The notes beneath the pieces were generated by a model. That model had not been told where the DNA came from. It searched no databases and saw only the letters and a list, made by a program, of their open reading frames with translations. Below are positions 11,409 to 38,624 of a stretch of 64,000 nucleotides of DNA, piece after piece. Both the position numbers and the translations under genes were made by a program. Position 1 is the stretch's first letter. The number at the start of each line of letters is the position of its first letter. The stretch is from NCBI GenBank assembly GCA_017643165.1, contig JAEPNY010000001.1, positions 186,001 to 250,000 of the forward strand, in the 5' to 3' direction. This stretch comes from Psychroserpens sp. (GTDB lineage Bacteria > Bacteroidota > Bacteroidia > Flavobacteriales > Flavobacteriaceae).

Positions 11409-11410
11409 TT

Positions 11411-11956: not shown

Positions 11957-12741
11957 ACGTATTAGTAACGGGCGCCTCAGGACAACTTGGCGTGGCAATC
12001 AAGTCCATCTCTCATCATTACGATAAACATTTTCAGATGACTTTTTTAACGAAACTAGATCTGGATATTACTAATCATAAAAGCGTAGCACGGCTTTTTA
12101 AAAATAACAACTTTGATTACTGTATTAATTGTGCGGCTTTCACTAATGTGGAGCTGGCTGAATCGACACCTGATTTGGCATATGAAATAAATCATGATGC
12201 GGTTAAAAATTTGGCCCTAGTATGTAAACAAAATGAAGTAATACTTGTGCATATTTCAACTGATTATGTGTTTGATGGCAACAAATCAAAACCATATACA
12301 GTTGATGACACTCCTAGCCCAATAAATATATATGGCGATTCTAAATTAAAAGGAGAGAAAGCAATACAGGAACTGATGCACTCCTATTTCATAATTCGGA
12401 CCTCTTGGCTATTTAATAAATCGTCTGGAAAGAACTTTTATAGGACTATTTTAAATAAGGCAATCAATCACGAAGCAATTCGTGTAGTTGATAATCAGAA
12501 AAGTTGCCCAACGGACTGTGATTCATTAGCGAAATTTATTTTAGATGGGATTAAAAACGCATCTAATAAATGGGGAATTCATCATTTCAGTGGCAAAACA
12601 CCAATGACTTGGTATGCGTTTGCAATTCAGATTTTAAAAGAAAATAATTTATTAAAATCAACAGATGTAAGTATTGATAATAATTATGTTACTTTTGCCA
12701 AGCGTCCAAAGTATTCTGTACTTGAAAATACGGTTATTTAG
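11953..12741 (+). CDS. rfbD: dTDP-4-dehydrorhamnose reductase
   Basis: Last step of dTDP-L-rhamnose synthesis, an NAD(P)H-dependent reduction at C4. The 262 residues include TGASGQLG at the N-terminus, NCAAFTNVE, HISTDYVFDG, and the SDR catalytic Y127/K131 in YGDSK. It is slightly shorter than many RmlD proteins (about 280-300), mainly near the C-terminus, but all catalytic landmarks are present. A 43-base gap follows before wecB. Confidence 0.94.
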   Translation: MNVLVTGASGQLGVAIKSISHHYDKHFQMTFLTKLDLDITNHKSVARLFKNNNFDYCINCAAFTNVELAESTPDLAYEINHDAVKNLALVCKQNEVILVHISTDYVFDGNKSKPYTVDDTPSPINIYGDSKLKGEKAIQELMHSYFIIRTSWLFNKSSGKNFYRTILNKAINHEAIRVVDNQKSCPTDCDSLAKFILDGIKNASNKWGIHHFSGKTPMTWYAFAIQILKENNLLKSTDVSIDNNYVTFAKRPKYSVLENTVI

Positions 12742-12784
12742 AACAAAGTATTTGTTCAAGTTAACAGTGTTGAAATGAAGATTT

Positions 12785-13936
12785 ATGAATCAAAAGAAAA
12801 AGAACCTTATCGTTTTTGGTACCAGACCAGAAGCAATTAAAATGGCGCCACTTGTTAAAGCGCTCCAAGAAAAATCAGATAATTTTATTACGAAAGTTTG
12901 TATAACTGCCCAACACAGGGAGATGCTAGATCAGGTTTTAGACTTTTTTGAGATTGATCCAGACTATGATCTTAACCTCATGAAGCCGAACCAAAATCTA
13001 TATACCTTAACGGCTGATATTATTACCGAACTAAAACCAATTTTAGAAGATTTCCAACCTGATTATGTATATGTTCATGGCGACACCACAACCTCTATGT
13101 CAGCGTCTATTGCGGCATTTTATTCTGGTGCTAAAATTTGCCATGTTGAAGCAGGATTAAGAACCTTCAATAAATTATCCCCTTTTCCTGAAGAGATAAA
13201 CAGAAGTATAGTTGGTAGAGTCACAGATTTTCATTTTGCGCCAACTGCATCATCGAAGGCTAATTTACTTAAAGAGAATGTGCCAGAAGATGGGATTATT
13301 ATCACTGGAAATACGGTTATTGATGCACTCAATTTTAGTACAAAAAAGGTTAATGATTCTGAATTTGTAGACGACGAAATTGAACAACTAAAATCAATTG
13401 TTGATAGTTCTAAAAAACTTATTCTTGTAACTGGTCATAGACGTGAAAATCACGGCCAAGGGTTTATTAATATTTGTGAAGCATTAAAAGAGATTGCTAT
13501 AATCAATCCTGATTGTGATATCATTTATCCTGTGCACTTAAACCCGAACGTTCAAAAACCAGTTTATGAATTATTATCAGGTATTGAAAATATCAAATTA
13601 ATTCAGCCCTTATCATACCCGAGCTTTGTTTGGTTAATGAACCTTTCATATATCATTATTACGGACAGTGGAGGTATACAAGAAGAAGCACCTAGCTTGG
13701 GAAAGCCTGTACTGGTAATGCGCGATACAACAGAACGACCAGAAGCTGTAGAAACTGGGACCGTGATCTTAGTTGGGACAGATAAAAATAGTATTGTAGA
13801 TGAAACGCAGAAGTTATTGAATGATACTAATGCTTACACACAAATGAGTAAATTACACAATCCATATGGTGACGGATTTGCCTGCGAACGCATCGTTAAT
13901 CATATTTTAAATACAAAAAACTTAGCACATCAATGA
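12785..13936 (+). CDS. wecB: UDP-N-acetylglucosamine 2-epimerase (non-hydrolysing)
   Basis: Cytosolic enzyme that interconverts UDP-GlcNAc and UDP-ManNAc, feeding the dehydrogenase encoded next. The 383 residues carry FGTRPEAIKMAPL at the N-terminus, VHGDTTTS, HVEAGLRT, TGHRREN, and the UDP-binding TDSGGIQEEAPSLGKPVLV followed by RDTTERPE. Length is standard. The stop overlaps wecC by four bases, so the pair should be co-translated to make UDP-ManNAcA. Confidence 0.97.
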   Translation: MNQKKKNLIVFGTRPEAIKMAPLVKALQEKSDNFITKVCITAQHREMLDQVLDFFEIDPDYDLNLMKPNQNLYTLTADIITELKPILEDFQPDYVYVHGDTTTSMSASIAAFYSGAKICHVEAGLRTFNKLSPFPEEINRSIVGRVTDFHFAPTASSKANLLKENVPEDGIIITGNTVIDALNFSTKKVNDSEFVDDEIEQLKSIVDSSKKLILVTGHRRENHGQGFINICEALKEIAIINPDCDIIYPVHLNPNVQKPVYELLSGIENIKLIQPLSYPSFVWLMNLSYIIITDSGGIQEEAPSLGKPVLVMRDTTERPEAVETGTVILVGTDKNSIVDETQKLLNDTNAYTQMSKLHNPYGDGFACERIVNHILNTKNLAHQ

Positions 13937-15144
13937 ATCAACCAGAAGTAGTTATGATTGGATTAGGCTATATTGGGTTGCCAACAGCGGCGCTTATAGC
14001 TCAAAATAAGACACTTGTTCATGGTGTTGATATTAATCCTAATGTCGTTGAAAAAATAAACAGAGGAGAAATCCATATTGTTGAGCCCGAACTTGATGAA
14101 GCAGTAGAGACTGCAGTTAAAGAAGGTTATCTCAAAGCAGATACGGTTCCTGTAGCAGCCAATACTTATATCGTTGTTGTTCCTACACCTTTTAAGGATA
14201 AAAATGAACCTGATATTTCATTTGTTGAGGCGGCGACAAAAGCAATCATACCAATTTTAAAGAAAGGAGATTTATATATTATCGAATCTACTTCACCAAT
14301 AGGTACGACGTCAAAAATGGCACAATTGATCTATCAGGAGCGCCCTGAACTCACAGATGAAATTTACATTGCCTATTGTCCTGAACGCGTACTTCCTGGA
14401 AATGTGATGTATGAATTAGTTCACAATGATCGTGTTATTGGTGGAATAACGCCAGAGTCAACAGCTAAAGCTGTTAGTTTTTATCGACAGTTTATAAAAG
14501 GTAATTTACACGAGACCAATGCAAGAACCGCTGAGATGTGTAAGTTGGTTGAGAACTCATCGAGAGATGTTCAAATTGCCTTCGCAAATGAACTTTCTTT
14601 AATTTGTGATAAGGCCGATATTAATGTCTGGGAGCTCATTGCCTTAGCAAATAAACATCCACGGGTTAATATTCTTCAACCTGGATGTGGCGTGGGTGGA
14701 CACTGTATAGCAGTTGATCCGTATTTCATCGTTTCAGACTACCCTATGGAATCTCAAATTATTGGTAAAGCACGTGAAATAAATAATTATAAATCATTTT
14801 GGTGCGCTGAAAAAATCCAATCTGAAAAATTGAAATTTGAATTAGAACACGGAAGGAAACCGAATATTGCTTTAATGGGATTAGCGTTTAAGCCAGATAT
14901 TGATGACTTAAGAGAATCACCAGCTAAATATATCGTTCAAAAGGTGTTACAGAATGCGAATAACGAAGACTACTATATTGTCGAACCCAACATAGATTCT
15001 CATAAAGTATTTAAGTTAACTTCTGTCGATAATGCTGTTGAACAAGCAGATATCATTGCATTTCTAGTCGCACATAAGGAATTCAAAAATTTAAATATTT
15101 CAGATAAAACAATTGTATTAGATTTTTGTGGCGTTCGAAAATAA
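13933..15144 (+). CDS. wecC: UDP-N-acetyl-D-mannosamine dehydrogenase
   Basis: Oxidises UDP-ManNAc twice to UDP-ManNAcA with NAD. The 403 residues show the Rossmann motif GLGYIGLPTAA at the N-terminus, VVPTPF, CPERVLPG, the catalytic-cysteine loop GCGVGGHCIAVDP with C258, and GLAFKPDIDDLRESPA. The PERVLPG form and pairing with wecB point to the ManNAc enzyme rather than UDP-glucose dehydrogenase (ugd is separate, near 36.3 kb). An 85-base gap follows before the sulfation genes. Confidence 0.94.
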   Translation: MNQPEVVMIGLGYIGLPTAALIAQNKTLVHGVDINPNVVEKINRGEIHIVEPELDEAVETAVKEGYLKADTVPVAANTYIVVVPTPFKDKNEPDISFVEAATKAIIPILKKGDLYIIESTSPIGTTSKMAQLIYQERPELTDEIYIAYCPERVLPGNVMYELVHNDRVIGGITPESTAKAVSFYRQFIKGNLHETNARTAEMCKLVENSSRDVQIAFANELSLICDKADINVWELIALANKHPRVNILQPGCGVGGHCIAVDPYFIVSDYPMESQIIGKAREINNYKSFWCAEKIQSEKLKFELEHGRKPNIALMGLAFKPDIDDLRESPAKYIVQKVLQNANNEDYYIVEPNIDSHKVFKLTSVDNAVEQADIIAFLVAHKEFKNLNISDKTIVLDFCGVRK

Positions 15145-15229: not shown

Positions 15230-15697
15230 ATGCCGAAGTACAAAAAGGAATCACATATACGTAGCTTATTAAAAGGAATTTCCTGGCGAGTTGTAGCAAC
15301 TACAGACACCGTACTGGTGGTTTTACTTATTACTTGTCTTACGGGTACCTGTAGCTTAGAGAATGCCTTGCGAATTGGTGGAGCAGAGTTTATAATTAAG
15401 TTTCTAATATATTATGCTCACGAGCGTATTTGGCAATTTGCGTATAAAGATGGTGTAGTTTCAACTAAAGAAACTCTATATAAAACAATATCTTGGAGGA
15501 TTCTAGCGACTACAATGACCTTCATAATATCGGGCGCAATTCTAGAAAGTTTTGATGAGGTTGCATTTTACATCGCAATTACCGAATTATTTACGAAATT
15601 TATATTGTACTATTTCCATGAACGCCTATGGTTAAAGCTACCATTAGGACAGATTAGAGATTATTTTAAACGACTATTAAAGATTAGTAATGAGTAA
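15230..15697 (+). CDS. tandem DUF2061 membrane protein
   Basis: The 155-residue protein contains two copies of one module, about residues 10-68 and 82-137. Each starts with K/T-x-ISWR (GISWRVVATT and TISWRILATT) and ends with the aromatic YYxHERxW (YYAHERIW and YYFHERLW). This is the DUF2061 family. Each module probably has two membrane helices, so the protein is likely a small four-helix membrane protein. DUF2061 genes often sit beside cysC/cysD/cysN, and here the frame overlaps cysC by eight bases, so a role with sulfate activation is likely. The actual function is unknown. Confidence 0.9.
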   Translation: MPKYKKESHIRSLLKGISWRVVATTDTVLVVLLITCLTGTCSLENALRIGGAEFIIKFLIYYAHERIWQFAYKDGVVSTKETLYKTISWRILATTMTFIISGAILESFDEVAFYIAITELFTKFILYYFHERLWLKLPLGQIRDYFKRLLKISNE

Positions 15698-16292
15698 AAA
15701 TATTGTACCACATCACTATAAAATTTCAGCGGAAGACCGACGTGCGATTAAAAAGCACAATTCGTTCTTGATTTGGTTTACGGGTCTTTCAGGTTCTGGT
15801 AAATCTACTATTGCAAATGCTGTAGAACAGGAGCTATTCAAAAAAGGCATTCATACCTATAGTCTTGATGGTGATAACATAAGAAAAGGAATCAATAATG
15901 ATTTGTCATTTTCGCCCGAAGATCGCACTGAGAATATTAGAAGAATTGCCGAAGTTGCCAATTTAATGATCGACGCAGGAATTGTTACTTTAGCGGCCTT
16001 TGTTTCTCCCTATAAAAAAGATAGACAGAACATTAAAAGTGTCGTCAAAGATATTAACTTTGTCGAGGTTTATGTGAATACAAGCGTTGAAGAATGTGAG
16101 CGGCGAGATGTGAAAGGATTGTACGCGAAAGCAAGGAAAGGGGAAATCAAAAATATGACTGGAATATCGGCACCATATGAAGCGCCAGAAAACCCAGACA
16201 TAGAGATTAAAACCGAGACTGAAAACATAGAACAAGCTGTAAAGCGAATAATGGATTTTATAACACCAAAATTAGAACTTAACAATGAGTAA
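15690..16292 (+). CDS. cysC: adenylylsulfate kinase
   Basis: Phosphorylates adenosine 5'-phosphosulfate (APS) to PAPS, the universal sulfate donor. The 200-residue cytosolic protein has the P-loop GLSGSGKS at 32-39, LDGDNIRKGIN, and the APS-kinase region FVSPYKKDRQ. It is a stand-alone kinase, not fused to CysN. It overlaps the DUF2061 gene by eight bases and cysD by eight bases, showing tight operon packing. PAPS is the substrate of the sulfotransferase encoded about 8 kb downstream. Confidence 0.96.
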   Translation: MSKNIVPHHYKISAEDRRAIKKHNSFLIWFTGLSGSGKSTIANAVEQELFKKGIHTYSLDGDNIRKGINNDLSFSPEDRTENIRRIAEVANLMIDAGIVTLAAFVSPYKKDRQNIKSVVKDINFVEVYVNTSVEECERRDVKGLYAKARKGEIKNMTGISAPYEAPENPDIEIKTETENIEQAVKRIMDFITPKLELNNE

Positions 16293-17190
16293 GTACTATT
16301 TAAACTATCTTGATGAATTAGAAAGTGAAGCAATATTTGTTTTACGTGAAGTTTGGGCACAATTTGATAATCCTGTAATCCTGTTTTCTGGAGGTAAGGA
16401 TTCAATTTTGGTTACACATTTGGCAAAAAAAGCATTTTACCCATCAAAGATTCCATTTCCACTTATGCACGTGGATACCGGACATAATTTTCCAGAGACC
16501 ATCCAGTTTCGAGACGATATTATAAAGCAGTTAGGAGTTCAACTTATCGTAGGTTCTGTTCAAGAATCGATTGATGAAGGACGTGTGGCTGAGGAACGCG
16601 GTAAAAATGCAACACGAAATGCACTTCAAATCACGACACTGCTCGATGCCATAGAAAGCAACAAAATTGATTGTGCTATTGGAGGCGGTCGAAGAGATGA
16701 AGAGAAGGCGAGAGCTAAAGAGCGGTTCTTTTCACATCGCGATGATTTTGGACAATGGGATCCAAAAAATCAACGTCCAGAATTATGGAACATCTTTAAT
16801 GGGAAACATTACGAGGGCGAACATTTTAGAGCGTTTCCAATTAGTAATTGGACCGAAATGGATGTTTGGAACTATATTAAAAGAGAAAACATAGAAATAC
16901 CTTCGTTATATTTTGCTCACGAACGTGAAGTTATTTGGAGGCAAAATTCATGGATTCCAAATTCAGAATTCTTAGTGCTTGAAGATAGCGAAGAGATTGT
17001 AACCAAAAAAGTGAGGTTCAGAACTCTGGGCGATATTACAATTACTGGTGGTATTGAATCAGATGCTGACACTTTAGCGAAAATAGTTGAAGAAGTTTCG
17101 GGGATGCGCCAAACCGAACGCGGTAACAGAAGTGATGATAAGCGATCTGAGACAGCTATGGAAGACCGCAAGAAACAAGGTTATTTTTAA
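16285..17190 (+). CDS. cysD: sulfate adenylyltransferase subunit 2
   Basis: Catalytic subunit of ATP sulfurylase, which forms APS and pyrophosphate from sulfate and ATP. The 301 residues show the PP-loop SGGKDS at 35-40, HVDTGHNFPE, GGGRRDEEKARAKERFFSHR, and the C-terminal RGNRSDDKRSETAMEDRKKQGYF region (conserved GTPase-subunit contact in CysD proteins). The length is that of CysD rather than a PAPS reductase, and the RRDEEKARAKER stretch supports this. It lies 40 bases ahead of cysN. Confidence 0.96.
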   Translation: MSKYYLNYLDELESEAIFVLREVWAQFDNPVILFSGGKDSILVTHLAKKAFYPSKIPFPLMHVDTGHNFPETIQFRDDIIKQLGVQLIVGSVQESIDEGRVAEERGKNATRNALQITTLLDAIESNKIDCAIGGGRRDEEKARAKERFFSHRDDFGQWDPKNQRPELWNIFNGKHYEGEHFRAFPISNWTEMDVWNYIKRENIEIPSLYFAHEREVIWRQNSWIPNSEFLVLEDSEEIVTKKVRFRTLGDITITGGIESDADTLAKIVEEVSGMRQTERGNRSDDKRSETAMEDRKKQGYF

Positions 17191-17230
17191 TAATAAACTC
17201 CATTAATTACCATATATATTAACAAGCGAT

Positions 17231-18484
17231 ATGTTAGATAACAATCAATTATTACGATTTACTACAGCAGGAAGTGTAGATGATGGAAAAAGCACATTAA
17301 TTGGTCGATTACTTTATGATTCTAAATCAATTTTTGAAGATCAATTAGAAGCCATAGAAAATACAAGTAAGAAAAAAGGTCACGATGGTGTTGATTTAGC
17401 TTTGTTTACTGATGGACTTAGAGATGAACGAGAGCAAGGTATTACAATTGATGTAGCCTATCGTTATTTTACAACACCAAAGCGTAAATTTATAATTGCA
17501 GATACACCTGGTCATATTCAATACACCAGAAACATGGTGACGGGTGCTTCGACGGCCAATGCTGCAATCATTCTTGTGGATGCCAGACATGGTGTTATTG
17601 AACAAACCAGACGTCACTCTTTTATAGCATCGTTATTACAGATCCCACACGTTATAGTTTGTATTAACAAAATGGATCTTGTTGACTATTCTGAAGAAGC
17701 TTACAATAAGGTAATTGAACAGTTTGAAGAGTTCTCATCTAAGATGTTGGTAAAGGATATTCGTTTTATTCCAATTAGTGCCTTAAAGGGAGATAATGTC
17801 GTTAATCGTTCTGAAAATATGAATTGGTATCAAGGTGCGCCATTATTGCATACTTTAGAAACATTGCATATTAGTAGCGATATTAATAAAGTGGACGCGC
17901 GTTTTCCGGTTCAAACTGTTTTAAGACCACAAAGCGAAGGGTTTATTGATTACAGAGGTTATGCTGGTAGAGTGGCAGGAGGAGTGTTTAGAAAAGGTGA
18001 TCAAATTACCGTCTTACCCTCTGGATTTACATCTAGTATAAAAACAATAGACACCTTTGATGGTGAAGTAGAAGAAGCATTTGCACCTATGTCTGTAGCG
18101 ATTACATTAGAAGACGATATCGATGTTAGTCGCGGTGATATGATTGTGCGTTCAAACAACAAACCAAATACAGCACAAGACCTAGAAGTTATGTTATGTT
18201 GGCTTCACGATAATTCAGCCAAACCAAGAGCTAAGTATTCAATACAACACACGTCAAATGATCAAAAAGCAATGATCAAAGAAGTGATTTACAAAATTGA
18301 TATCAACACATTGGAACGAATCACCGATGATTCAGAATTACATATGAATGATATTTGCAAGGTTAAAATTAGAACTACAAAACCTTTAATGATCGATTCA
18401 TATCGTGAAAATAGAACTACAGGAAGTATTATACTTGTGGATGATAATACTAATGAAACTGTTGCCGCGGGAATGGTCATTTAA
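17231..18484 (+). CDS. cysN: sulfate adenylyltransferase subunit 1 (GTPase)
   Basis: GTP-hydrolysing partner of CysD that drives APS formation. The 417-residue elongation-factor-like protein shows the G1 motif GSVDDGKS at 14-21, RDEREQGITIDVAYRYF (switch), DTPGHIQYTRNM (G3) and NKMDLVDY (G4), followed by EF-Tu-like beta-barrel domains. It lacks the C-terminal APS-kinase extension of NodQ-type fusions, which fits the separate cysC. A gene for a pyrophosphatase begins nine bases after its stop. Confidence 0.96.
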   Translation: MLDNNQLLRFTTAGSVDDGKSTLIGRLLYDSKSIFEDQLEAIENTSKKKGHDGVDLALFTDGLRDEREQGITIDVAYRYFTTPKRKFIIADTPGHIQYTRNMVTGASTANAAIILVDARHGVIEQTRRHSFIASLLQIPHVIVCINKMDLVDYSEEAYNKVIEQFEEFSSKMLVKDIRFIPISALKGDNVVNRSENMNWYQGAPLLHTLETLHISSDINKVDARFPVQTVLRPQSEGFIDYRGYAGRVAGGVFRKGDQITVLPSGFTSSIKTIDTFDGEVEEAFAPMSVAITLEDDIDVSRGDMIVRSNNKPNTAQDLEVMLCWLHDNSAKPRAKYSIQHTSNDQKAMIKEVIYKIDINTLERITDDSELHMNDICKVKIRTTKPLMIDSYRENRTTGSIILVDDNTNETVAAGMVI

Positions 18485-18492: not shown

Positions 18493-19092
18493 ATGAACAA
18501 TAATAAATTGGTATTCATATTAATGATTTTACTTATGTTCTCATCATGTGAGACTAAGGTTGATTATGGTGAAATACCATTATATTCTTCAAATAATAAT
18601 ATACAGGCTGTAATAGAGATTCCTGCTGGAACTAACAAAAAAATAGAATACAATAAAACGTCAAAGGCTTTTGAAATTGATAAAAAAAATGGCAAGGATC
18701 GAGTGATAGATTTTTTACCATATATTGGAAATTATGGATTTTTCCCTTCTACATTTTCAAATCCTGATGAAGGTGGAGATGGAGACGCAATAGATGTATT
18801 GGTTCTTTCAGAGAACGTAAGTACAGGAACTATTATTGAGGTCAAACCAATTGCGATAATGAAACTCATTGATGATGGCGAACTTGATTATAAGATTATA
18901 GCGGTTCCTATTGATAAAAAAATGCAGATTATAAAGGCAAATAACTATCTTGAATTTTCTGAAAATTATGCTGAACTAAAACAGATTATTGAATTGTGGT
19001 TTTATAATTACAATAAAGATGATACTGCTGTAATTAAAGGTTGGGGCAGTGAATTAGAAGCACTTAACGAATTAAAACACTCAAGTTTATAA
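18493..19092 (+). CDS. family I inorganic pyrophosphatase with lipoprotein signal
   Basis: The 199-residue protein aligns by eye to family I soluble pyrophosphatase. It has EIPAG, a tyrosine-bearing NYGFFP, the metal site DGDAIDVLV with all three aspartates, LDYKIIAVP, and a C-terminal VIKGWG. The active-site set seems complete. Unusually, it begins with a lipoprotein signal peptide ending MFSSC (cysteine 19), so the mature enzyme should be anchored outside the cytoplasm. It follows cysN by nine bases; ATP sulfurylase releases PPi in the cytosol, so the location does not fit a simple PPi-pull role. No internal ATG would give a cytosolic form with the whole domain. Confidence 0.88.
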   Translation: MNNNKLVFILMILLMFSSCETKVDYGEIPLYSSNNNIQAVIEIPAGTNKKIEYNKTSKAFEIDKKNGKDRVIDFLPYIGNYGFFPSTFSNPDEGGDGDAIDVLVLSENVSTGTIIEVKPIAIMKLIDDGELDYKIIAVPIDKKMQIIKANNYLEFSENYAELKQIIELWFYNYNKDDTAVIKGWGSELEALNELKHSSL

Positions 19093-19137
19093 CTAAAAAT
19101 AAAGAATAATAAAAACAACAAATAAAAACGCATTATA

Positions 19138-19815
19138 ATGGAAGAATTATTAGGTCAATTAGATTTCAATTTTACAGAAAACTTTTCTATCACGGGATAT
19201 ATTATTAATATCTTAATAGCAGCAATATTTTTGTACATTCTTAGCATTGTATACAGGAGGTATGGGAATTCAATTTCTAATAGAAATCAATTATCAAAAG
19301 TTCTGATAATTGTTGGGCTAACAACGTTTATTATAATTTCGATAGTTAAATCTTCACTGGCATTATCTCTCGGGTTAGTTGGTGCTTTATCGATAATCAG
19401 ATTTAGAACTGCTATAAAAGAACCAGAAGAATTAGGATATTTCTTTATCGCAATATGTATTGGATTAGGAATGGGAGCGGGTCAATTATTACCTACCTTA
19501 ATTGGCTTTTTCGTAGTTATGGTGATTATAGTACTCTTAAGTAATACTAAGTTAAGCAGTTCATTAACTCAAAATCTAATAATTAATGCCACTTGCGATG
19601 ATAAAGAACGACCTGGTTTAATTAACGCAGTTAGTGTTATTGTAGAGAACAATGCTAAACAGGCTGAGTTGAAAAGGCTAAGCCAAACAGACGGTGGTGT
19701 TGATTTTAATTTTTTAATCAACGTATCGAATTTGGAAAGTTTACAAGAAATTTCAAAAGAAATTTATGGTATAGACAAAGCCATTAAACTTACTTTTATC
19801 GACAACGAAATCTAG
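19138..19815 (+). CDS. DUF4956 membrane protein
   Basis: The 225-residue protein has about four membrane helices in residues 20-145, then a soluble C-terminal domain of about 80 residues. The segment LSLGLVGALSIIRFRTAIKEPEELGY, split by a basic RFRTAIK turn, is the conserved core of the DUF4956 family. Genes of this family commonly neighbour VTC-domain and CotH genes, as here (CotH starts five bases later, VTC after that). A role as the membrane part of a polyphosphate or phosphate-transfer system is inferred. Function is not established. Confidence 0.85.
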   Translation: MEELLGQLDFNFTENFSITGYIINILIAAIFLYILSIVYRRYGNSISNRNQLSKVLIIVGLTTFIIISIVKSSLALSLGLVGALSIIRFRTAIKEPEELGYFFIAICIGLGMGAGQLLPTLIGFFVVMVIIVLLSNTKLSSSLTQNLIINATCDDKERPGLINAVSVIVENNAKQAELKRLSQTDGGVDFNFLINVSNLESLQEISKEIYGIDKAIKLTFIDNEI

Positions 19816-19820
19816 TAATT

Positions 19821-22800
19821 ATGAAAATAAAAAGCAGTAGAATTAATTTTAAGTTAGGATTTTTAATAATACCGTTACTCGCACTTTTATTTTTACTATC
19901 GCTTAATTCGAACAGTAAAGCTAATCAGGAGAGTAATAATAAAACTGAACAGAAGCGTGATGTTGAATTAGAAACAGCACTGAGTTTAAATAAAAATATT
20001 GAACAAATTATTGAAAATCAAACTAATTTAATTCACAAGGATTCGGTTTGTTCAATTTACTACTTGACGGAGTTAGGGACCCCAACAGTAATTTTTGATT
20101 ATAAGGAGAAATTGAGTATTGATCAAAAATACGGAAGATTTAAATTTAGAGCGGTATTAAAGGATTCGACTGAATTAAAACAAAGAAATAATAATAATGC
20201 CGTAATATTCTTAGATTTCAACGCAAGACATCATGAACTGACAATTAATGATACGAAGCATTTCATTTTTAAGAAATCTCTCAACCATGATTTACTGTTT
20301 CCCGACAACATAAAACATGTAAACATCGGTAGATATTATAATAATCAAAAAGCTATCGCCTACAATGTTGAAAATATAAGCCTTAATAAACTTGATAACA
20401 TAAATGTAATTGGGCTAAAAAATAGAATGAACATAACCATTAAAGAAAAGAACTTCAATAAAATTAAAGACAAAAGAATGTCTTCATTTAGAAATGGGGT
20501 TTTAGTGACAGAAGATGGAGATGAAGTAAATGAATTGGTTAACTACAAGAATTCTGAAAACATTGAAGCTACAATTCGTTTGAAAGGCGATATAACCGAC
20601 CATTTAAACGACCCTAAGAAATGGTCATTTAGAATCGTTGCAGATGGCGAAAAAACAATTAATAGATTACGTAAATTTTCAATTCAACACCCTAAGACTA
20701 GAAGTTATTTATGGGAGTGGTTATTTAATAAAGTAATAAAGGACAATGATTTAATTGGCATCAAATATGAGTTCTTAGATGTAAATATAAACGTTGTAAA
20801 TAATAATGATTCAATAAGCAAAATTCCATTAGGAATAATGGCATTTGAAGAAGCATTTGATAAAATTTTAATTGAAAATAATAATAGAAGAGAAGGACTG
20901 TTATTTGGTTTTGATGATGCGGCAGCTTGGTTACAAATTGAAAGGCAAAATGAGCTTAATTTACCAAAAGATAGTAAGGCGAACCGAGTTCATCCTGGGT
21001 CTATTTCACATTTTAAAGTATTTAATGAGTCTAAAGTTATTTCAGATCCAAAATTAAAAAAGCAATTTGAGACGGCTATTGACTTATTGGATGGATTGAG
21101 ATCTAAAAAATTAAAAATCTCAGAAGTCTTTGATGTTGATAAGCTAGCTTTTTATGTGGCTTTATCGAATCTATTTGGTGGAGGTCATGGAATTAGAGGA
21201 AGTAACGTTCGGATATACTACAATCCTATTACTAATAAATTTGAACCTGTTTCTTGGGACTCCTCATTAGGGAATAAATTAACTAAGTTGGAAAAGTATA
21301 GTTTGTTAGTTGAAGGAGACGAAGTTTACAATCAGAAATTAGTTGAAAAATTAAAATTAGTTAGCAGTACCGATTTTATTAACTCATTGGTGGATAAATT
21401 TAGAGAGGATTTAACATTACAGCACATGAATTTGTATAACGAGTTTAAAAATCAATGTAATTTAGATTTATCTGTTTTAGAGTACAATAGTAATTTTATT
21501 AAGCAAAAAATTTACCCTTCTAAACCAATTGCAGCAAGCTTTATCGACTTTAATAAGTCAGAAATGACCATAAACATTGAAAATACATCTTATGACCTCC
21601 CAATAGTTGTAAATGGATTAATTCATAAAAACGGAAAGGTATTATCAGACGAAAGAACAGGTTCAATTATTTTAGAACCTTATTCTAACCAGTTGATCAC
21701 CTTTAAGCTAAAAGAATCATTTATAAATGCATTTGTTTCAAAAAAGAATAAAAAAGGTGAATTTAGATTTCCTAAAGATCTGAGTAAAATTCGTATCGAG
21801 TATGATATGCTTGGATTAGATGAAAAGAGACAAGAGAGAATAATACCTTATAGTATTAATAGCAACCTTAGCGAAAGCATAAGTAGTTATAAAGATTCCC
21901 AAAAGCCTAATTTGGAACTTTTTGATTTTGTTTTATTGAATGAGAACGAAAAAATAATTGTTCTTAAATCTGGATCCTACGAAATTAATAAGACAATGAT
22001 CATACCATCTGGTTATTCTGTTCTTGTTGAGAAAGGATTTCAGTTAAACCTAAGGAATAACGCTTCTCTTATATCTTACTCATCAATTACTAGTGTTGGA
22101 AATGAAGAAGAACAAATTAAGTTTTATTCATCAGATGGAACTGGAGCAGGATTGTTTATTACAAATGCCACGCAAAAATCAATTTTTAAGAATTGTATTT
22201 TCTCTAATCTTTCTAATCCAAATTCAGACGCTTGGGAGTTGTCGGGTGCTGTAAATTTTCACGAAACAACCGTCGATATTAGCAATTCTATTTTTAAGAA
22301 TAATAGATGTGAAGATGGATTAAATATCATTAGATCTACATTTAATTTAGAATCGTCTACTTTTTTAAATACTTTTTCTGACGCATTTGATGGTGATTTT
22401 GTTCAAGGAACAATATCGAATTGTGAATTCACTAACTCAGGTAATGATGGAGTCGACGTTTCAGGTTCAAACATAAAACTAGTAAATATAGATTTTGTGA
22501 ATCCTTCAGATAAGGCTATAAGCGCAGGAGAAAAAAGTACTATTACTGGATCTAAAATTGACATTAGAGGTGGAGAAATTGGCGTTGTAAGCAAGGATTT
22601 ATCAAATGTATTTTTAACGTCAGTATCGATTTCAGATACGCGATTAGGATTTTCTAGTTTTCAAAAGAAAAGTGAGTACGGACCAGGTAGTATTACCATC
22701 GAAAATTTAACGACAGCTAACGTTGAGTCGGAACATTTAATAGAAATAGGATCTAACTTGATGATTGATAATATGCTGGCTGCGACTGTTACGAATAAGG

Positions 22801-22847
22801 TTATTGACCAAATGTATGGTAAAGAGTATGGTAAAAGTAGCAAATAA
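19821..22847 (+). CDS. CotH-kinase-like protein with C-terminal beta-helix
   Basis: A large 1008-residue envelope protein. One membrane helix near residues 10-28 is a signal anchor, so most of the chain is probably periplasmic. Residues about 250-520 resemble the CotH protein-kinase family: RKFSIQHPKTRSYLWEWL, GIMAFEEAFDK, FGFDDAAAW, and NVRIYYNPITNKFEPVSWD, whose terminal WD corresponds to the metal-binding aspartate. The C-terminal third (roughly 740-970) is a run of short imperfect beta-helix turns (such as ISNSIFKNN and ISNCEFTNS). CotH proteins phosphorylate surface proteins in Bacillus spores; the substrate here is unknown. The gene is very AT-rich, and its end overlaps the VTC gene. 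Confidence 0.82.
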   Translation: MKIKSSRINFKLGFLIIPLLALLFLLSLNSNSKANQESNNKTEQKRDVELETALSLNKNIEQIIENQTNLIHKDSVCSIYYLTELGTPTVIFDYKEKLSIDQKYGRFKFRAVLKDSTELKQRNNNNAVIFLDFNARHHELTINDTKHFIFKKSLNHDLLFPDNIKHVNIGRYYNNQKAIAYNVENISLNKLDNINVIGLKNRMNITIKEKNFNKIKDKRMSSFRNGVLVTEDGDEVNELVNYKNSENIEATIRLKGDITDHLNDPKKWSFRIVADGEKTINRLRKFSIQHPKTRSYLWEWLFNKVIKDNDLIGIKYEFLDVNINVVNNNDSISKIPLGIMAFEEAFDKILIENNNRREGLLFGFDDAAAWLQIERQNELNLPKDSKANRVHPGSISHFKVFNESKVISDPKLKKQFETAIDLLDGLRSKKLKISEVFDVDKLAFYVALSNLFGGGHGIRGSNVRIYYNPITNKFEPVSWDSSLGNKLTKLEKYSLLVEGDEVYNQKLVEKLKLVSSTDFINSLVDKFREDLTLQHMNLYNEFKNQCNLDLSVLEYNSNFIKQKIYPSKPIAASFIDFNKSEMTINIENTSYDLPIVVNGLIHKNGKVLSDERTGSIILEPYSNQLITFKLKESFINAFVSKKNKKGEFRFPKDLSKIRIEYDMLGLDEKRQERIIPYSINSNLSESISSYKDSQKPNLELFDFVLLNENEKIIVLKSGSYEINKTMIIPSGYSVLVEKGFQLNLRNNASLISYSSITSVGNEEEQIKFYSSDGTGAGLFITNATQKSIFKNCIFSNLSNPNSDAWELSGAVNFHETTVDISNSIFKNNRCEDGLNIIRSTFNLESSTFLNTFSDAFDGDFVQGTISNCEFTNSGNDGVDVSGSNIKLVNIDFVNPSDKAISAGEKSTITGSKIDIRGGEIGVVSKDLSNVFLTSVSISDTRLGFSSFQKKSEYGPGSITIENLTTANVESEHLIEIGSNLMIDNMLAATVTNKVIDQMYGKEYGKSSK

Positions 22848-23550
22848 AGGCCTTAGTGAAGTTCATGGGCAAAATCTGAGGTATGAGCGTAAGTTTATAT
22901 TTGAAAAGACCGAACCAGAAGATTTAATTGAAGAGGTTCTTTCCAACAGTTTTGGGTTTAATGAAGTATTTTATAGACGAACTATAAATAATATTTATTA
23001 TGACGACAACAAGTTTAGTTACTATCATCAAAATGTAGCGGGAGATGGTCATAGAGAGAAATGTCGAATACGATGGTACGGTGATACGTTTTCAGAAATC
23101 AATAATCCAACTTTCGAGATTAAGAAAAAGTTTGGAGAAGTAGGCGACAAAATTTCATTTAAACTAAAAAACCATAAAACATCTATTGATCAGATAGACA
23201 TTAAACAATTTGATCATCTGTTGTTTGAGGGTGATACTGAGAAAAACGTTTCAGTAATAGGGAAATTTCAACAATTGGTTCCAACCTTGTACAATACATA
23301 TGAACGGCGTTATTTTTTGTCGTTTTGTCAGAAATTTAGAATAACGATTGACTACAATATGCAGTTCTATAATCCAAATTATAACAATTTCTCTAGTAGC
23401 AATATGAGCATACCCTATGATGAGGTTGTTTTAGAGCTGAAATACAATCTGGAACATGATCAAGAAAGTAGATTAATAACGCAGCAGTTTAATACAAGAC
23501 TTTCGAAAAACTCAAAGTATGTAAGAGGTGTGGAATTAGTCCATCATTAA
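22816..23550 (+). CDS. VTC-domain polyphosphate polymerase
   Basis: Resembles the catalytic domain of yeast Vtc4, which makes polyphosphate from ATP inside a beta-barrel tunnel lined with basic residues. Matching elements in order are LRYERKF, KCRIRWYGD (two tunnel arginines), TFEIKKKFG, YERRYFLS, RITIDY and VVLELKY (metal-binding glutamate). There is no membrane segment, so it is probably cytosolic and may work with the DUF4956 protein. The frame extends back to 22765, but that stretch lies inside the CotH gene and reads unlike protein. ATGs at 22816 and 22828 are the likely starts; the choice is uncertain. Confidence 0.85.
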   Translation: MVKSMVKVANKGLSEVHGQNLRYERKFIFEKTEPEDLIEEVLSNSFGFNEVFYRRTINNIYYDDNKFSYYHQNVAGDGHREKCRIRWYGDTFSEINNPTFEIKKKFGEVGDKISFKLKNHKTSIDQIDIKQFDHLLFEGDTEKNVSVIGKFQQLVPTLYNTYERRYFLSFCQKFRITIDYNMQFYNPNYNNFSSSNMSIPYDEVVLELKYNLEHDQESRLITQQFNTRLSKNSKYVRGVELVHH

Positions 23551-25261: not shown

Positions 25262-26461
25262 GTGCTGAAACAGTCATTTTTTTCAAATTATTTAAATAAG
25301 AATTATTTACTCTACGGTGGTTCTATCCTTATTTCTAGAGGTGCTGAATACCTTGTTCTGTTAATTGCTGCAGGTTTAATTACAAAAGATAGTTACGGAC
25401 AATTAGAGTTTTATAAGAAAATAATTGAAGTGCTCTCAATTTTGGTAGCATTTGGCTTTCCTCCTTTAATTTTAAGTTATACGCGTAGTCAGCATAGTAA
25501 GAAGTATTTTTTTGTATTAGCTCTAGGCTTTATTAGTATATTCTCGGCGCTTTTTGCGCTAATATTGATACCCTTTGAACTTTCATTTTTAGCAATCCCA
25601 TTGCTATTCTATGCCGTCTTTTTTACTAATGGTATCTTTCCTGTTTTTCATCTTGTACATGATGGGAGTCAAAAAGCCTCTTTGTATAAGATGTTGGTGT
25701 CGGTCATATTTTATGGCGTTATCTTAGGCTTGTATTATTTTGGTTACTACGAATATTCATTTGTTATAGTTAATTATATTTTACTTCCAGTAGGATTCAT
25801 CTATACAATTCTTGTTATTAGGAAGTTACATATATCTCAACGCAAGCTTGTTAAATATTGGAAACTGTTAAAACGCTTGCTTCTTAGTTCATTCACCTTG
25901 GTGCTTAGCAACTTTGCTAATATCATGTTTATGTATTCAGATATTTTCGTAATTACTCTACTCTCTACTCAAGTAAATAAAGAAATAGCAGATTATAGCT
26001 TTCCATTGAATATTGCAAATGCGTTGTTAATTATTCCATTTACGCTGGTTCAAGTAGATATCGAAAAGATAAAAAATAGTGAGGCTGCGAGTAGATTAAC
26101 GATGCAAAAGATTATCAAGCTAACACTTTTAGGAGCTGTTTGTATTGTTGCCATTTATTTATTGTTGATTAATACGGCGTATGCAAAGTATGATAACACA
26201 TTGAATATTTTTTATTTGATCATAATCGCTAAGATATTTCAGTCACTTGCAGTACTTTTAGGCACAAAGATTATGATTTATAAACTGTTTAGAATCAATT
26301 TAATGATCACCTCAAGCATCATGGTGACTAATTTTGTGATAAGTTATTTAATTTATCCTCATTATGGATTAATTGGAATTGCTGCTGCCAGCATATTTTC
26401 ACTTTTTCTGCGTTATCTATTATTAGTGATTGCCAACAGAAAACACAAAAACAAATCTTAA
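25262..26461 (+). CDS. polysaccharide flippase (Wzx-like)
   Basis: The 399-residue protein is almost entirely hydrophobic, with about 11-12 membrane helices, and fits the oligosaccharide flippase family. It would move the undecaprenyl-linked repeat unit across the inner membrane. The start is GTG at 25262: an in-frame stop lies at 25253-25255 and the ATG at 25260 is in another frame and closes at once. It lies between the sulfotransferase and a polymerase-like gene, and its stop overlaps the next ATG by one base. A second flippase-type gene is at 61.0 kb. Confidence 0.85.
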   Translation: MLKQSFFSNYLNKNYLLYGGSILISRGAEYLVLLIAAGLITKDSYGQLEFYKKIIEVLSILVAFGFPPLILSYTRSQHSKKYFFVLALGFISIFSALFALILIPFELSFLAIPLLFYAVFFTNGIFPVFHLVHDGSQKASLYKMLVSVIFYGVILGLYYFGYYEYSFVIVNYILLPVGFIYTILVIRKLHISQRKLVKYWKLLKRLLLSSFTLVLSNFANIMFMYSDIFVITLLSTQVNKEIADYSFPLNIANALLIIPFTLVQVDIEKIKNSEAASRLTMQKIIKLTLLGAVCIVAIYLLLINTAYAKYDNTLNIFYLIIIAKIFQSLAVLLGTKIMIYKLFRINLMITSSIMVTNFVISYLIYPHYGLIGIAAASIFSLFLRYLLLVIANRKHKNKS

Positions 26462-27744
26462 TGAGCGGTGCAAATAATATCATCCATCTGAACAACCAAG
26501 ATTGGTTAGATAAAATTAGTTTGATAGCACTGATTCTAAGTGTGTTCTTTTTACCGCTAAATATGTGGTTAAACAACCTATTAACATTACTATTTATTGG
26601 GCTACAATTAATAAGTTTTGTAAAGACGGATTTTAAAGAAAAACAAAAGCGTTTAAAGCAGAACAGAAACTTATTGTTCATTTTTACTTTGCCATTTACT
26701 TTAACAGTTATTGGAACAATTTATTCAGATAACCTGTCTAATGCCTATGATGATATTGTTCGATTAGCACCTATTTTAATGCTTCCGATGTTATTTGTCT
26801 TAAATCCAGACATGATCCGAATTAATCGGAATGCAATAGGATGGGTATTGGTTATAGGTTGTTTATTATCGGCGTTACTATGTTGGGCCAATAATTTTTA
26901 TACGATTTATAATAATAATGAAAGCTTTATGCGTATACTAAAGCCAGAATACGCAAATCAAGGTCTAACTAAGGTGCTAGATCTACATGCGTCTTATATA
27001 GCGATATTGGTCAATACAAGTTTAGCATTCATAGTTTATCATTTGGATTCATCAAAGCTTAAGATTAAACGTCTTTGGTTATATATCGGCTTTGGGATAT
27101 TAGTACTTTTTTTGTTCCATTTACTAGCCAGAACGGCAATTGTTACCTTTTTACTTGCTGCATTAGTTTATATAATTGCAAGAAAAAAATGGAAAATTTT
27201 AATTGTGCTGTTAACAGGGTTAACGGTTTTAACAGTTACTGTTCAGAGTATCGATCAGAATTATTTAAGAGATCGACTTATTAATAGTTTGAATTTCTTC
27301 CAAAAAGAGTCACAATTTAGTAAGAAGGATGATCGTTTTAATAGGCTAAAAGCTTCATACGAGGTGTTTTTACAGCATCCCATTATCGGGCCAGGAACGG
27401 CCGATGATGACGACTTCAGAAGACCTATTTTTAAGCGAAATAGAGACGTTATAGCCTACAATCAAAACTATAATGCGCATAATCAATTTTTTGAATACTT
27501 AAGTACATATGGAATAGTGGGAGCAATTGTTTTTATTGTGTTATTCTATACTATTTTTGCAAAGGTAATTAGGCATAAAAATTACTTTTATTTATTCATT
27601 TTTTCTGCATTTTTACTAGCTAGTATGACAGAGTCTCTTCTCGAGCGAACACTTGGAATTGTGTATTTTGGTTTAGCTCTTTCGTTTTTGATTATATTAA
27701 CTACAAAAAATGGTTTAAAATCACAACACTATGAAAACAACTAA
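26461..27744 (+). CDS. O-antigen ligase/polymerase family membrane protein
   Basis: The 427-residue protein has about 11 membrane helices. A large periplasmic stretch around 290-345 contains QHPIIGPGTADDDD and YNAHNQFFEYLSTYGIVG. The HNQFFEYL-x-GIVG pattern is characteristic of the O-antigen ligase/Wzy-C family. It could polymerise repeat units or ligate the finished polymer. It starts on the last base of the flippase stop codon and overlaps the downstream lipoprotein gene by 14 bases. Confidence 0.85.
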   Translation: MSGANNIIHLNNQDWLDKISLIALILSVFFLPLNMWLNNLLTLLFIGLQLISFVKTDFKEKQKRLKQNRNLLFIFTLPFTLTVIGTIYSDNLSNAYDDIVRLAPILMLPMLFVLNPDMIRINRNAIGWVLVIGCLLSALLCWANNFYTIYNNNESFMRILKPEYANQGLTKVLDLHASYIAILVNTSLAFIVYHLDSSKLKIKRLWLYIGFGILVLFLFHLLARTAIVTFLLAALVYIIARKKWKILIVLLTGLTVLTVTVQSIDQNYLRDRLINSLNFFQKESQFSKKDDRFNRLKASYEVFLQHPIIGPGTADDDDFRRPIFKRNRDVIAYNQNYNAHNQFFEYLSTYGIVGAIVFIVLFYTIFAKVIRHKNYFYLFIFSAFLLASMTESLLERTLGIVYFGLALSFLIILTTKNGLKSQHYENN

Positions 27745-28561
27745 ATTTCTATTTCTATTCATAATCCTAGCTCTGGCTTCATGTAAAGATCAAGAAAAGA
27801 AACAGCCAGAGGTTGAAGACGGTAAACCGGATGAGGTCGAAAGTATATCCGTAAAACCATTAGAGGAAACACGCGTAATTAATTTACCATTGAATGATAA
27901 TGATACGTCACTAACAATTAATAATATTCAGTTTACTTATGAAGGCGCCGAGTTTGATAACACAAAGGGTTCTTACATTCAAACTTCTTCAAAAGATCTT
28001 AATATTAATGATGGAATAGGCATTAATACCGTATTTAATTTTAGCGAAAGAGATGGAGCTAAAGCTCAAACGTTATTTTCGATGGTGGATGCAAATAGCG
28101 CTACTGGAACCGCTGCCTTTACATTCTATATTTCTAATCGAAGAATCACGGGTGTTGCTCAGGGAAAGTTTCTATGGGGTAATGATTACACCTATAACAA
28201 GGGAATGTCCGATGTGTTTTTTGATTCACCACAACTAGAAATAGATAAATATTATAGTCTGTCTATAAATATTACTTCTGAAAAAATTGAACTTTTTGTT
28301 AATAATGAATTGTATCAAGAATTCAATAATCTTTCTATTCAGAAGTTGAAAGGAGATCATATTGTTTTAGGGGCATTTAAAAAGCCTCAAGATCCGGCTG
28401 GAAGTAAAATACTTAAAGGTAAAATTAGAAATCTTGAGATCTATAATCGTTCACTCACGCTTGACGAGATCGACGATTACTATTTAATCAATCAAGGTGA
28501 GATGAACGAGCAAAATGATGCCTTAGCTCTTGAACAGATGGAAAAGTCTAACGAGAATTAA
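27731..28561 (+). CDS. lipoprotein with LamG-like (concanavalin-type) domain
   Basis: The 276-residue protein begins with a lipoprotein signal ending ALASC (cysteine 18), then an acidic/lysine linker to about residue 50. Residues roughly 52-250 look like a LamG/pentraxin jelly roll: alternating beta strands, FSMVDANSATGTAAFTF, KYYSLSINITSEKIELFVNN, and the closing KGKIRNLEIYNRSLTLDEI, the typical LamG ending. Such domains bind carbohydrate. It sits between two polymerase-like genes, so a role in holding or sensing the polymer is possible. Cleavage activity seems less likely; no catalytic motif is visible. Confidence 0.8.
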   Translation: MKTTKFLFLFIILALASCKDQEKKQPEVEDGKPDEVESISVKPLEETRVINLPLNDNDTSLTINNIQFTYEGAEFDNTKGSYIQTSSKDLNINDGIGINTVFNFSERDGAKAQTLFSMVDANSATGTAAFTFYISNRRITGVAQGKFLWGNDYTYNKGMSDVFFDSPQLEIDKYYSLSINITSEKIELFVNNELYQEFNNLSIQKLKGDHIVLGAFKKPQDPAGSKILKGKIRNLEIYNRSLTLDEIDDYYLINQGEMNEQNDALALEQMEKSNEN

Positions 28562-28581
28562 ACCGTTGAATTATTACATTA

Positions 28582-32006: not shown

Positions 32007-32008
32007 TT

Positions 32009-32521: not shown

Positions 32522-32524
32522 TAT

Positions 32525-34357: not shown

Positions 34358-34365
34358 AAAGCAGT

Positions 34366-35514: not shown

Positions 35515-35518
35515 AAGA

Positions 35519-36259: not shown

Positions 36260-36299
36260 TATATACCCAATTTCACACAGTAAAGTTCGTATACTTTGT

Positions 36300-36307: not shown

Positions 36308-36326
36308 TTTCTTAAATTAAAGATTA

Positions 36327-38623: not shown

Positions 38624-38624
38624 A

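Follow-up and report, generated by a model that had tools for sequence, protein, structure and literature searches.

DUF4956, a CotH-like protein and a VTC polyphosphate polymerase are encoded together as a recurrent, conserved module (termed here the triad), and an exported inorganic pyrophosphatase (PPase) tracks this module and not CysC. Triad and PPase were analyzed in a 64,000 nucleotide stretch of Psychroserpens sp. DNA (the window), where they form one close-packed block within a sulfated exopolysaccharide (EPS) locus. The link of the triad to sulfation genes is real but secondary. The reading preferred here, with a probability of roughly 40%, is that of a transferable accessory module, often situated in surface-polysaccharide loci, which produces polyphosphate for use outside the cytoplasm in the phosphorylation of polysaccharide.

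Organization of the locus

The block and its surroundings consist of the following features.

9535..15144, + strand, RmlBACD, WecB and WecC, nucleotide-sugar genes of the EPS locus (context)
15230..18484, + strand, DUF2061, CysC, CysD and CysN, PAPS synthesis (context; Pfam)
18493..19092, + strand, family I inorganic pyrophosphatase, exported (lipoprotein); PF00719, E = 1.4e-32, 113 bits
19138..19815, + strand, DUF4956, five modelled hydrophobic helices and a C-terminal ACT/ferredoxin-like domain; PF16316, E = 1.7e-17
19821..22847, + strand, CotH-like domain fused to a right-handed beta-helix, N-terminal membrane anchor (AlphaFold2, Foldseek, hhalign)
20403..21455, + strand, CotH-like domain of this protein, residues 195–545, with H456 (21186–21188), N462 and D480 (21258–21260)
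21891..22775, + strand, beta-helix domain of this protein, residues 691–985, the C-terminal third (AlphaFold2, alignment)
22816..23550, + strand, VTC polyphosphate polymerase catalytic domain, start at 22816 or 22828, overlapping the CotH-like gene; PF09359
23575..25255, + strand, CysQ (PAP phosphatase) and sulfotransferase, PAPS use (context; Pfam)
25262..39983, + strand, flippase, Wzy/ligase, glycosyltransferase, WecG, UDP-sugar dehydrogenase, epimerase and initiating sugar transferase (context)

The successive spacings from CysN to the sulfotransferase are 8, 45, 5, an overlap, 24 and 1 bases. The four open reading frames at 18493–23550 keep the PAPS-making genes apart from the PAPS-using genes, and here the coordinates and Pfam matches agree with an earlier note on this DNA, which had described such a split. 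The EPS genes end at 39983 and are followed by purD at 42553. From 15.3 to 26.4 kb the + strand showed no terminator-like site. The same scan gave only three sites against a shuffle mean of 6.3, so this absence says little.

Recurrence of the triad

A total of 173 DUF4956 loci was collected, or 165 after removal of 8 duplicates. VTC is present in 124 of these and VTC together with the CotH-like gene in 67; since many canonical CotH sequences escape the CotH-like profile, the latter count is a minimum for kinase-like partners. For one DUF4956 type, the named loci comprise the best 80 of at least 585 relatives. Sampling by phylum took 60 of 96 places, with 2 already in the set, and passed over 21 of the other, strongest-scoring subtype and 13 more that were weak or repeated; sampling by family added 17 of 55 places, with 3 already present, and passed over 35 with weaker scores (E above 1e-14). 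The triad is found in Bacteroidota, Chloroflexi, Planctomycetota, Gemmatimonadetes, other bacteria and two archaea, most commonly in the order DUF4956, CotH-like, VTC. Thus the three genes do belong together, as the earlier note had supposed. Triad carriers include named strains, e.g. Dokdonia sinensis and Aquimarina megaterium.

Two or more EPS marker genes are found at 21/45 adequately flanked triad loci and fewer than two at the other 24/45, a count made without control loci. By eye, the triads of two Dokdonia loci (L063, L071) adjoin apparent ATP synthase genes. A metallophosphoesterase gene lies near the module, outside Bacteroidota as well. PPase, Cys and EPS genes were detected with profiles grown from this window, in flanks of about 10 kb at most.

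These counts bear on a reading in which polyphosphate is itself the exported product, an anionic matrix or phosphate store beside the EPS, with the CotH-like protein anchoring or priming it and the PPase and phosphoesterase recovering phosphate. Many loci have VTC-DUF4956 and no detected CotH-like gene (124 loci with VTC versus 67 with all three), and turnover of phosphate polymers would suit an exported PPase and phosphoesterase. However, the CotH-like protein is well conserved and often encoded between DUF4956 and VTC, and in the other DUF4956 subtype a PF08757 CotH is found within 5 kb of DUF4956 in 7/8 relatives, near the pair. This reading is considered unlikely.

The pyrophosphatase follows the triad

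The PPase was proposed earlier to be exported, and this stands. Its N-terminus is hydrophobic, with a signal that by eye ends in a lipobox-like Cys, and the same is seen in 15/15 homologues listed. The family I motif is usually DGDPxD; here it reads DGDAID(V), with the Asp triad present. The nearest solved structure is 5tea (E = 1.3e-21).

A strong homologue (E<1e-69) is found in 5/57 genomes (the Psychroserpens genome itself and 56 relatives), all five of which have the triad. The only other genome with this triad type (G005) carries a PPase homologue of 36%, 54 kb distant. CysC is strong in 23/23 genomes of the genus, but this PPase is strong in only four, every one a triad carrier. A PPase lies within 10 kb of 18/45 triads versus 0/58 other adequately flanked DUF4956 loci, a count in which related loci are not independent and one PPase (L050) is 9 kb off on the opposite strand; the remaining 27/45 triads have none inside 10 kb. 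The PPase also adjoins triads with no Cys genes in view, in Dokdonia, Allomuricauda and Pareuzebyella loci.

The position of the PPase gene directly 3′ of cysN, here and in one other locus (L069), could indicate that it serves the PAPS pathway, where PPi removal would pull ATP sulfurylase, and that the other three genes are unrelated insertions. The export signal, the restriction to triad carriers among CysC-strong genomes of the genus, and the recurrence beside triads that show no Cys genes all argue against this, as does a second PPase encoded elsewhere in the same genome. Such a role is most improbable.

Link to sulfation genes

DUF4956 loci adjacent to Cys genes number 8/165 and fall in two separate clades; 7/45 adequately flanked triads are Cys-linked. 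The eight loci span at least four genera (group codes g1, g9, g404 and g225), with Lutibacter maybe a fifth. On a tree, Cys linkage requires three changes, all forced by starred branches, and 0/500 shuffles were as low, although the tree is quick with long branches, near relatives make the shuffles optimistic, and the three changes are possibly one gain and two losses. Pure chance insertion is rejected, as the linkage occurs in two clades and in at least three gene orders. The earlier note had regarded chance as probable if related genomes carried the triad far from sulfation genes and the arrangement was unique to one strain. Most sampled triads do lie away from sulfation genes, but the arrangement is not confined to one strain.

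No APS kinase at E<1e-40 is found in 7/20 module genomes checked: Dokdonia sinensis, an Allomuricauda MAG, Flagellimonas flava, two Aquimarina, Methanogenium marinum and a Marinamargulisbacteria single cell; incompleteness is possible for the MAG and for the single-cell genome of 1.5 Mb. At the looser default threshold a match is present in 15/20, versus 13/20 strong. Partial weak matches above the Pfam cut-off of 21.1 occur in Flagellimonas (3.8e-4, 21.8 bits) and Methanogenium (3.6e-6, 27.6 bits), and are read as probable P-loop cross-matches. Conversely, the Cys cassette is found beside sugar genes without the triad at 20/20 places checked in genus and family. Eighteen of these are in 17 genus genomes (one, G005, with a triad elsewhere) and two in other genera, with G013 and G019 left out; the sugar genes are Rml-like at 19 places and WecC-like at one (L227). 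The shared EPS locus therefore accounts for the co-location, and a sulfation-specific machine is rejected, since both the 7/20 genomes and the 20/20 places speak against it. The earlier suggestion that the block is a machine tied to sulfation was thus not borne out.

VTC polymerase and DUF4956

The open reading frame proposed as a VTC polyphosphate polymerase retains that prediction. It matches PF09359 with E = 4.9e-28 and 98.7 bits (cut-off 23), and its profile matches yeast Vtc4 (3g3q) with E = 3e-13. Residues R19, K23, R81, E98, K100, K109, R161, R172, D176, E204, K206 and K231 (counted from 22825) are invariant among 45 rows and identical in Vtc4; E21 and K79 are also invariant in these rows but not common to Vtc4. 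We take the conserved basic and acidic residues to line the tunnel. The open reading frame opens with TTG at 22765, and the ATGs at 22816 and 22828 overlap the stop of the CotH-like gene, which suggests coupled translation. Because the genome encodes a separate PPK and gives only a single VTC match, the VTC looks dedicated.

DUF4956 scores 64.1 bits with PF16316 (cut-off 30.6). The family assignment of the earlier note is confirmed, but its four helices become five in the AlphaFold2 model, followed by the ACT-like domain. Mean pLDDT is 83 but only about 66 across residues 71–90. Foldseek matches are ACT-like and include SbtB and the MgtC C-domain. No VTC chains are found among the 50 PDB fold matches listed; the model resembles ACT and, less clearly, MgtC proteins. 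Identification as MgtC was set aside as weakly supported (hhalign probability 20%, E = 0.001); a protein of one relative (G035) gives 25.1 bits with PF02308, under the cut-off of 31.4. A conserved basic stretch, RFRTAIKE, lies where helix 3 ends, and its R88, R90 and K94 are invariant in 59 rows. DUF4956 is a candidate polyphosphate channel or regulator; given the ACT and weak MgtC likeness and the low model certainty at the basic stretch, it may regulate rather than transport.

CotH-like/beta-helix protein

A Pfam search of this protein at E<=1 gave no families, and in the genome scan PF08757 reaches 21.6 bits (cut-off 23.8). A PDB profile search with the 41-row alignment gave a best E of only 0.31. 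Profile-profile comparison with CotH by hhalign gives E = 9.9e-17 (probability 98.8), and with the AlphaFold2 model (pLDDT 89.7) the first Foldseek PDB matches are CotH 5jda/5jd9 (5jda E = 4.3e-10, TM-score 0.65 by target length). PF08757 is matched at E<=0.1 by 13/41 relatives (best 2.1e-13). The gene is called CotH-like on the strength of the sub-threshold PF08757 score, hhalign, the fold and these relatives. After CotH, the fold-search matches are beta-helix glycan enzymes (GH87, 3.5e-6; AlgG, 8.4e-4), and 14/41 relatives match PF13229 at E<=0.1.

By our own alignment, H456, N462 and D480 presumably correspond to PKA D166, N171 and D184. The catalytic-base Asp position is thus His, in 40/41 aligned relatives and in 49/62 across all rows, the 41-row alignment omitting 21 of the 62; the other two residues are kept. 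Of the 13/62 rows without His, five are beta-helix copies from two-gene loci, seven are divergent and one is a canonical CotH. At the CotH K276 place the window has Gly (Lys/Arg in 20/41), and the D210 place is a gap. D166, N171 and D184 are the PKA residues as named in the available text of a CotH review. The His at the putative catalytic-base position is a new feature. Because of the Asp to His change, the Gly at K276 and the D210 gap, the protein may be no kinase. The earlier designation as a periplasmic CotH-like kinase therefore holds for the fold but not for the Pfam match or the catalytic Asp, and it did not mention the beta-helix.

The beta-helix displays a conserved acidic/Lys ladder (D854, D857, D859, D876, D879, D897, K898, E904, D926, K950), of which D854, D857 and D859 are unsubstituted in 40/41 rows, the remaining row being a gap. 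This conservation would fit a CotH-like domain that is a non-catalytic scaffold, a beta-helix that is the enzyme (epimerase, hydrolase or lyase), and a VTC-DUF4956 pair acting as sensor/regulator. So would the two-gene relatives L025–L028 and L032, in which the beta-helix copies lost the H456- and D480-place residues (L025 has Glu at D480). However, the second copy in the same loci retains both, H456 is kept in 40/41 rows, and E343 and E344 are each kept in 39/41. This reading is very doubtful.

A different role would be phosphorylation of surface or export proteins, as by spore-coat CotH, with the module controlling EPS assembly. CotH is a protein kinase according to the review text available, and the Pel paper (PMC7112168), in its available text, names control of Pel synthesis through protein phosphorylation as one possibility. 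Against it, the beta-helix resembles polysaccharide enzymes and bears the acidic ladder, and this role, too, is held to be unlikely.

Proposed mechanism

In the preferred reading, polyphosphate-dependent phosphorylation of polysaccharide, the cytosolic VTC would polymerize the gamma-phosphate of ATP into polyphosphate. DUF4956 would carry the chain across the inner membrane with its basic stretch toward the VTC, a role likened to that of the yeast VTC membrane part serving the vacuole, and its ACT-like domain would probably be regulatory. The beta-helix of the anchored CotH-like protein would bind the growing or finished polysaccharide, and the CotH-like domain would place phosphate onto this glycan acceptor, with polyphosphate as the proposed donor since the periplasm is without ATP. 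The exported PPase would split the PPi end product and so pull the reaction, and the exported phosphoesterase would be an addition in relatives. The module's place among the sulfation genes would reflect a shared target, as each set of genes would modify what this one EPS locus produces. It is quite unlikely that the more specific form applies, in which the CotH-like/beta-helix protein is a polyphosphate-driven extracytoplasmic polysaccharide kinase using the conserved His as base or in a phosphohistidine relay, so that a single EPS receives sulfate from PAPS in the cytosol as well as phosphate from polyphosphate in the periplasm.

To our knowledge, no obvious ATP is available to extracytoplasmic kinases. 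A polymerase, a membrane protein and an exported kinase-like protein, joined in many Bacteroidota by an exported PPase, offer the testable idea of polyphosphate as an exported phosphate currency. If the acceptor is polysaccharide, this would be a widespread added route to phosphorylated EPS in loci shared with sulfation.

Comparison with known systems

Literature searches found no pairing of CotH kinase with exopolysaccharide, a search on CotH, sulfotransferase and polyphosphate matched only the author name Schoepp-Cothenet, and no assigned function for the module was found in the available texts. A triad next to Gram-positive Pel operons has been published before: the accessory genes cotH-PPP-DUF4956-DUF4832 adjoin these operons in streptococci, clostridia and bifidobacteria and are described there as of unknown function (PMC7112168, available text). 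The same three families are contiguous beside exopolysaccharide synthesis in both cases, but the Pel module as described lacks sulfation genes, an exported PPase and a beta-helix fusion. The window triad is contiguous beside Wzx/Wzy-type EPS and sulfation genes and does not adjoin pelDEADAFG.

In C. perfringens NELoc-2, two VTC genes, a CotH and a GT2 gene are in one block, described in the text available as a locus without a function (PMC2879425). VTC and CotH genes are likewise together near a putative polysaccharide synthase, but in another phylum. MgtC proteins share with DUF4956 the order of membrane helices then ACT-like domain and a colinear weak profile match, but at the low hhalign probability given above. 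The Bacillus CotH atypical kinase (5jda/5jd9) shares the fold and the residues at the N171 and D184 places; the protein here differs in having His456 at the D166 place, in being anchored, predicted exported and beta-helix-fused, and in scoring below the Pfam cut-off.

An SPX domain is part of yeast VTC, whereas the VTC here, of 241–245 residues and prokaryotic, has no room for one. The membrane partner here also appears to differ, being DUF4956 with an ACT-like domain. With the yeast complex (Vtc4 3g3q; 8i6v, 7ytj) the module here shares the VTC catalytic domain and its residues, and the placement of the polymerase beside a membrane partner.

Gene order in the window

The four genes lie within an exopolysaccharide (EPS) locus of approximately 30 kb on the + strand, in the following order:

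First part of the EPS locus, +: RmlBACD, WecB, WecC
After WecC, before the four-gene block, +: DUF2061, CysC, CysD, CysN
18493–19092, +: pyrophosphatase (PPase)
19138–19815, +: DUF4956
19821–22847, +: CotH-like/beta-helix protein
22816/22828–23550 (two candidate starts), +: VTC
After the four-gene block, +: CysQ and sulfotransferase
Distal EPS part, +: flippase, Wzy/ligase, glycosyltransferase, WecG, UDP-sugar dehydrogenase, epimerase, initiating sugar transferase

Intergenic gaps within the block are small and the VTC start overlaps the end of the CotH-like gene. A scan for terminator-like sites was uninformative (3 sites vs 6.3 in shuffled sequences). Also in the EPS locus, a gene encoding a LamG/sialidase-N type lectin domain (27731–28561) overlaps the end of the Wzy/ligase gene. 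The window's EPS locus is bordered by purD (42553–43824), and purD-like open reading frames, identified by eye, lie close to the module in Maribacter, Allomuricauda and Pareuzebyella (L032, L052, L068). This recurrence suggests that EPS loci share a chromosomal site.

Conservation of the module

DUF4956 loci totaling 173 were compared: the window plus 15 relatives, 80 named loci (the best 80 of at least 585 relatives of one DUF4956 type), 60 of the 96 places in the phylum and 17 of the 55 in the family. Removal of 8 duplicates left 165. VTC adjoins DUF4956 in 124 of these, and both VTC and a CotH-like gene are beside it in 67. Where flanks exceed 8 kb (103 loci), 45 carry the full triad, most frequently as DUF4956>CotH-like>VTC (17) or DUF4956>CotH-like>VTC>PPase (7). 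Full triads are present in Chloroflexi, Planctomycetota and Gemmatimonadetes, among other groups, as well as in a gammaproteobacterial MAG, the Pelagibacteraceae isolate AG-915-D19, Methanogenium marinum and a Woesearchaeota record. A Lutibacter MAG supplies the closest named module in the tree. With the other DUF4956 subtype, a PF08757 CotH gene is found within 5 kb in 7/8 relatives, the exception being genome G056. The grouping of the four genes proposed in the earlier note is borne out, and the module is real, conserved and poorly known.

The pyrophosphatase and phosphoesterases

The PPase N-terminus is hydrophobic and ends in a lipobox-like Cys (by eye), as in 15/15 of the homologues listed; the best solved relative is 5tea (E-value = 1.3e-21). 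Among 57 genomes (the window's own and 56 relatives), with E < 1e-69 taken as the same PPase, it is confined to the window genome, G007, G012, G015 and G030, all of which carry the triad. Genome G005, whose triad is a distant one, has a 36% homologue 54 kb away from it, and remaining PPases score 2.5e-14 or weaker. PPase lies within 10 kb of 18/45 triads vs 0/58 other DUF4956 loci, related loci not being independent and one of the 18 (L050) having its PPase 9 kb off on the opposite strand. It directly follows VTC, with no Cys genes in view, in the Bacteroidota loci L052, L053, L054, L064 (only 6.7 kb long), L068 and L080.

An exported metallophosphoesterase adjoins in G007, G012, G015, G030 and L068, and homologues occur close to the module in loci of Planctomycetota, Anaerolineales, Gemmatimonadetes and Methanogenium; a search of the window genome gave no match. 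Calcineurin-like phosphoesterases near the module span several phyla, with an export signal (by eye) in flavobacterial copies:

L025:5351–6217, calcineurin-like phosphoesterase
L028:13737–14621, calcineurin-like phosphoesterase
L068:15036–15926, calcineurin-like phosphoesterase
L037:13357–14442, calcineurin-like phosphoesterase

Link to sulfation genes

Modules flanked by two or more of CysC, CysD and CysN number eight: the window, L025–L028, L069 (a 4.7 kb MAG contig with CysC out of view), L191 and L192. None of these Cys genes lies within 10 kb of the module in L193, which belongs to the same clade. The eight are spread over two clades of the tree and require three changes, each forced by starred branches. 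Gene order takes at least three forms across these two separate lineages, and the strand is the same in every case. Their settling by Cys genes fits co-expression for one polymer, without proving that a single polymer bears both sulfate and phosphate groups. The Lutibacter MAG locus (L069:3–4268) contains a sulfotransferase-like open reading frame, CysD, CysN, PPase and DUF4956; it shares the CysD-CysN-PPase-DUF4956 order with the window, and the DUF4956 sequences are 77% identical.

CysC is strong in 23/23 genomes of the genus; the module is found in 5/23, in 4 of those 5 beside Cys genes. A CysQ-DUF2061-CysC-CysD-CysN cassette stands among sugar genes in 20/20 module-free CysC neighbourhoods. 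A strong APS kinase was absent from 7 of 20 module genomes searched, two of the seven showing weak partial matches above the Pfam cut-off. A functionally necessary link is countered by CysC without the module, the cassette without the module, and the module without strong APS kinase. The tie to sulfation drawn in the earlier note is a local and secondary one. The most economical view has both the sulfation genes and the module modifying the product of one EPS locus. DUF2061 (window 15230–15697), situated between CysQ and CysC in all 20 module-free cassettes, may be a membrane protein related to sulfate or PAPS.

The CotH-like protein

In the 1008-residue protein, an N-terminal anchor precedes a CotH-like domain and a beta-helix (model pLDDT 89.7). 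A Pfam search matched no family, while its relatives match CotH in 13/41 and Beta_helix in 14/41 at E ≤ 0.1. The top Foldseek matches are 5jda/5jd9 (E-value = 4e-10); lower-ranked matches are beta-helix glycan enzymes, which superpose poorly overall. In an alignment with ten canonical CotH proteins, the WD Asp is retained as D480 (D 35/41, E 5/41) and N462 in 36/41 rows. The NWD Asp, present in 9/10 canonical rows, is replaced by His456 in 40/41 CotH-like rows (49/62 when all such rows are counted). According to a review, CotH retains equivalents of PKA D166, N171 and D184, and on this alignment His456 would therefore occupy the D166 place. A beta-helix enzyme carrying a dead kinase domain is a reading we consider quite improbable.

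Beta-helix residues D854, D857, D859, D876, D879, D897, K898, E904, D926 and K950 are each conserved in 37–40 of the 41 rows and are candidates for an active or binding face. The beta-helix (21891–22775) resembles GH87/AlgG-type enzymes, with a conserved Asp/Lys/Glu ladder, and may hold a second catalytic site. In L025–L028, L032 and L191–L193, VTC-DUF4956 is flanked by two CotH-like genes. In L025–L028 and L032, the beta-helix copy lacks the residues at the H456 and D480 places, and a short copy without beta-helix keeps them; the window protein unites both features. Either a single two-domain protein was divided into two in these loci, or the window gene arose by fusion.

Proposed mechanism and known systems

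The DUF4956 model (mean pLDDT 83, approximately 66 over residues 71–90) shows five helices followed by a C-terminal beta-alpha-beta-beta-alpha-beta domain, with fold matches to ACT/ferredoxin-like proteins, including SbtB and the MgtC C-domain. RFRTAIKE, almost invariant across 59 homologues, ends helix 3; by the positive-inside rule, we infer that this motif and the C-domain face the cytosol. Two relatives' loci, L029 and L030, have DUF4956 with no VTC detected, and the L029 protein (G035) gives a weak MgtC match (PF02308, 25.1 bits).

From family membership, VTC would make polyphosphate and PPase would remove PPi; DUF4956 would export the polyphosphate, and the CotH-like protein would use it as donor with the glycan as acceptor. 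The periplasm is not known to contain ATP. We give this whole mechanism a probability of about 0.4. Secretion of polyphosphate as such appears unlikely, and phosphorylation of protein is likewise doubtful.

Near Gram-positive Pel operons, cotH, a poly-phosphate polymerase, DUF4956 and DUF4832 are described in PMC7112168, where one option raised for these genes is regulation. A C. perfringens locus is described in PMC2879425 as including VTC and CotH genes. In the literature searched, no paper described the module together with sulfation genes or an exported PPase; this is weak evidence of absence because most subscription journals fell outside the search.

The window genome also encodes PPK elsewhere, and a search of it for a second VTC found none. 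Yeast VTC has a channel model for polyphosphate. The window VTC matches yeast Vtc4 (profile E-value = 3e-13) and has its conserved residues.
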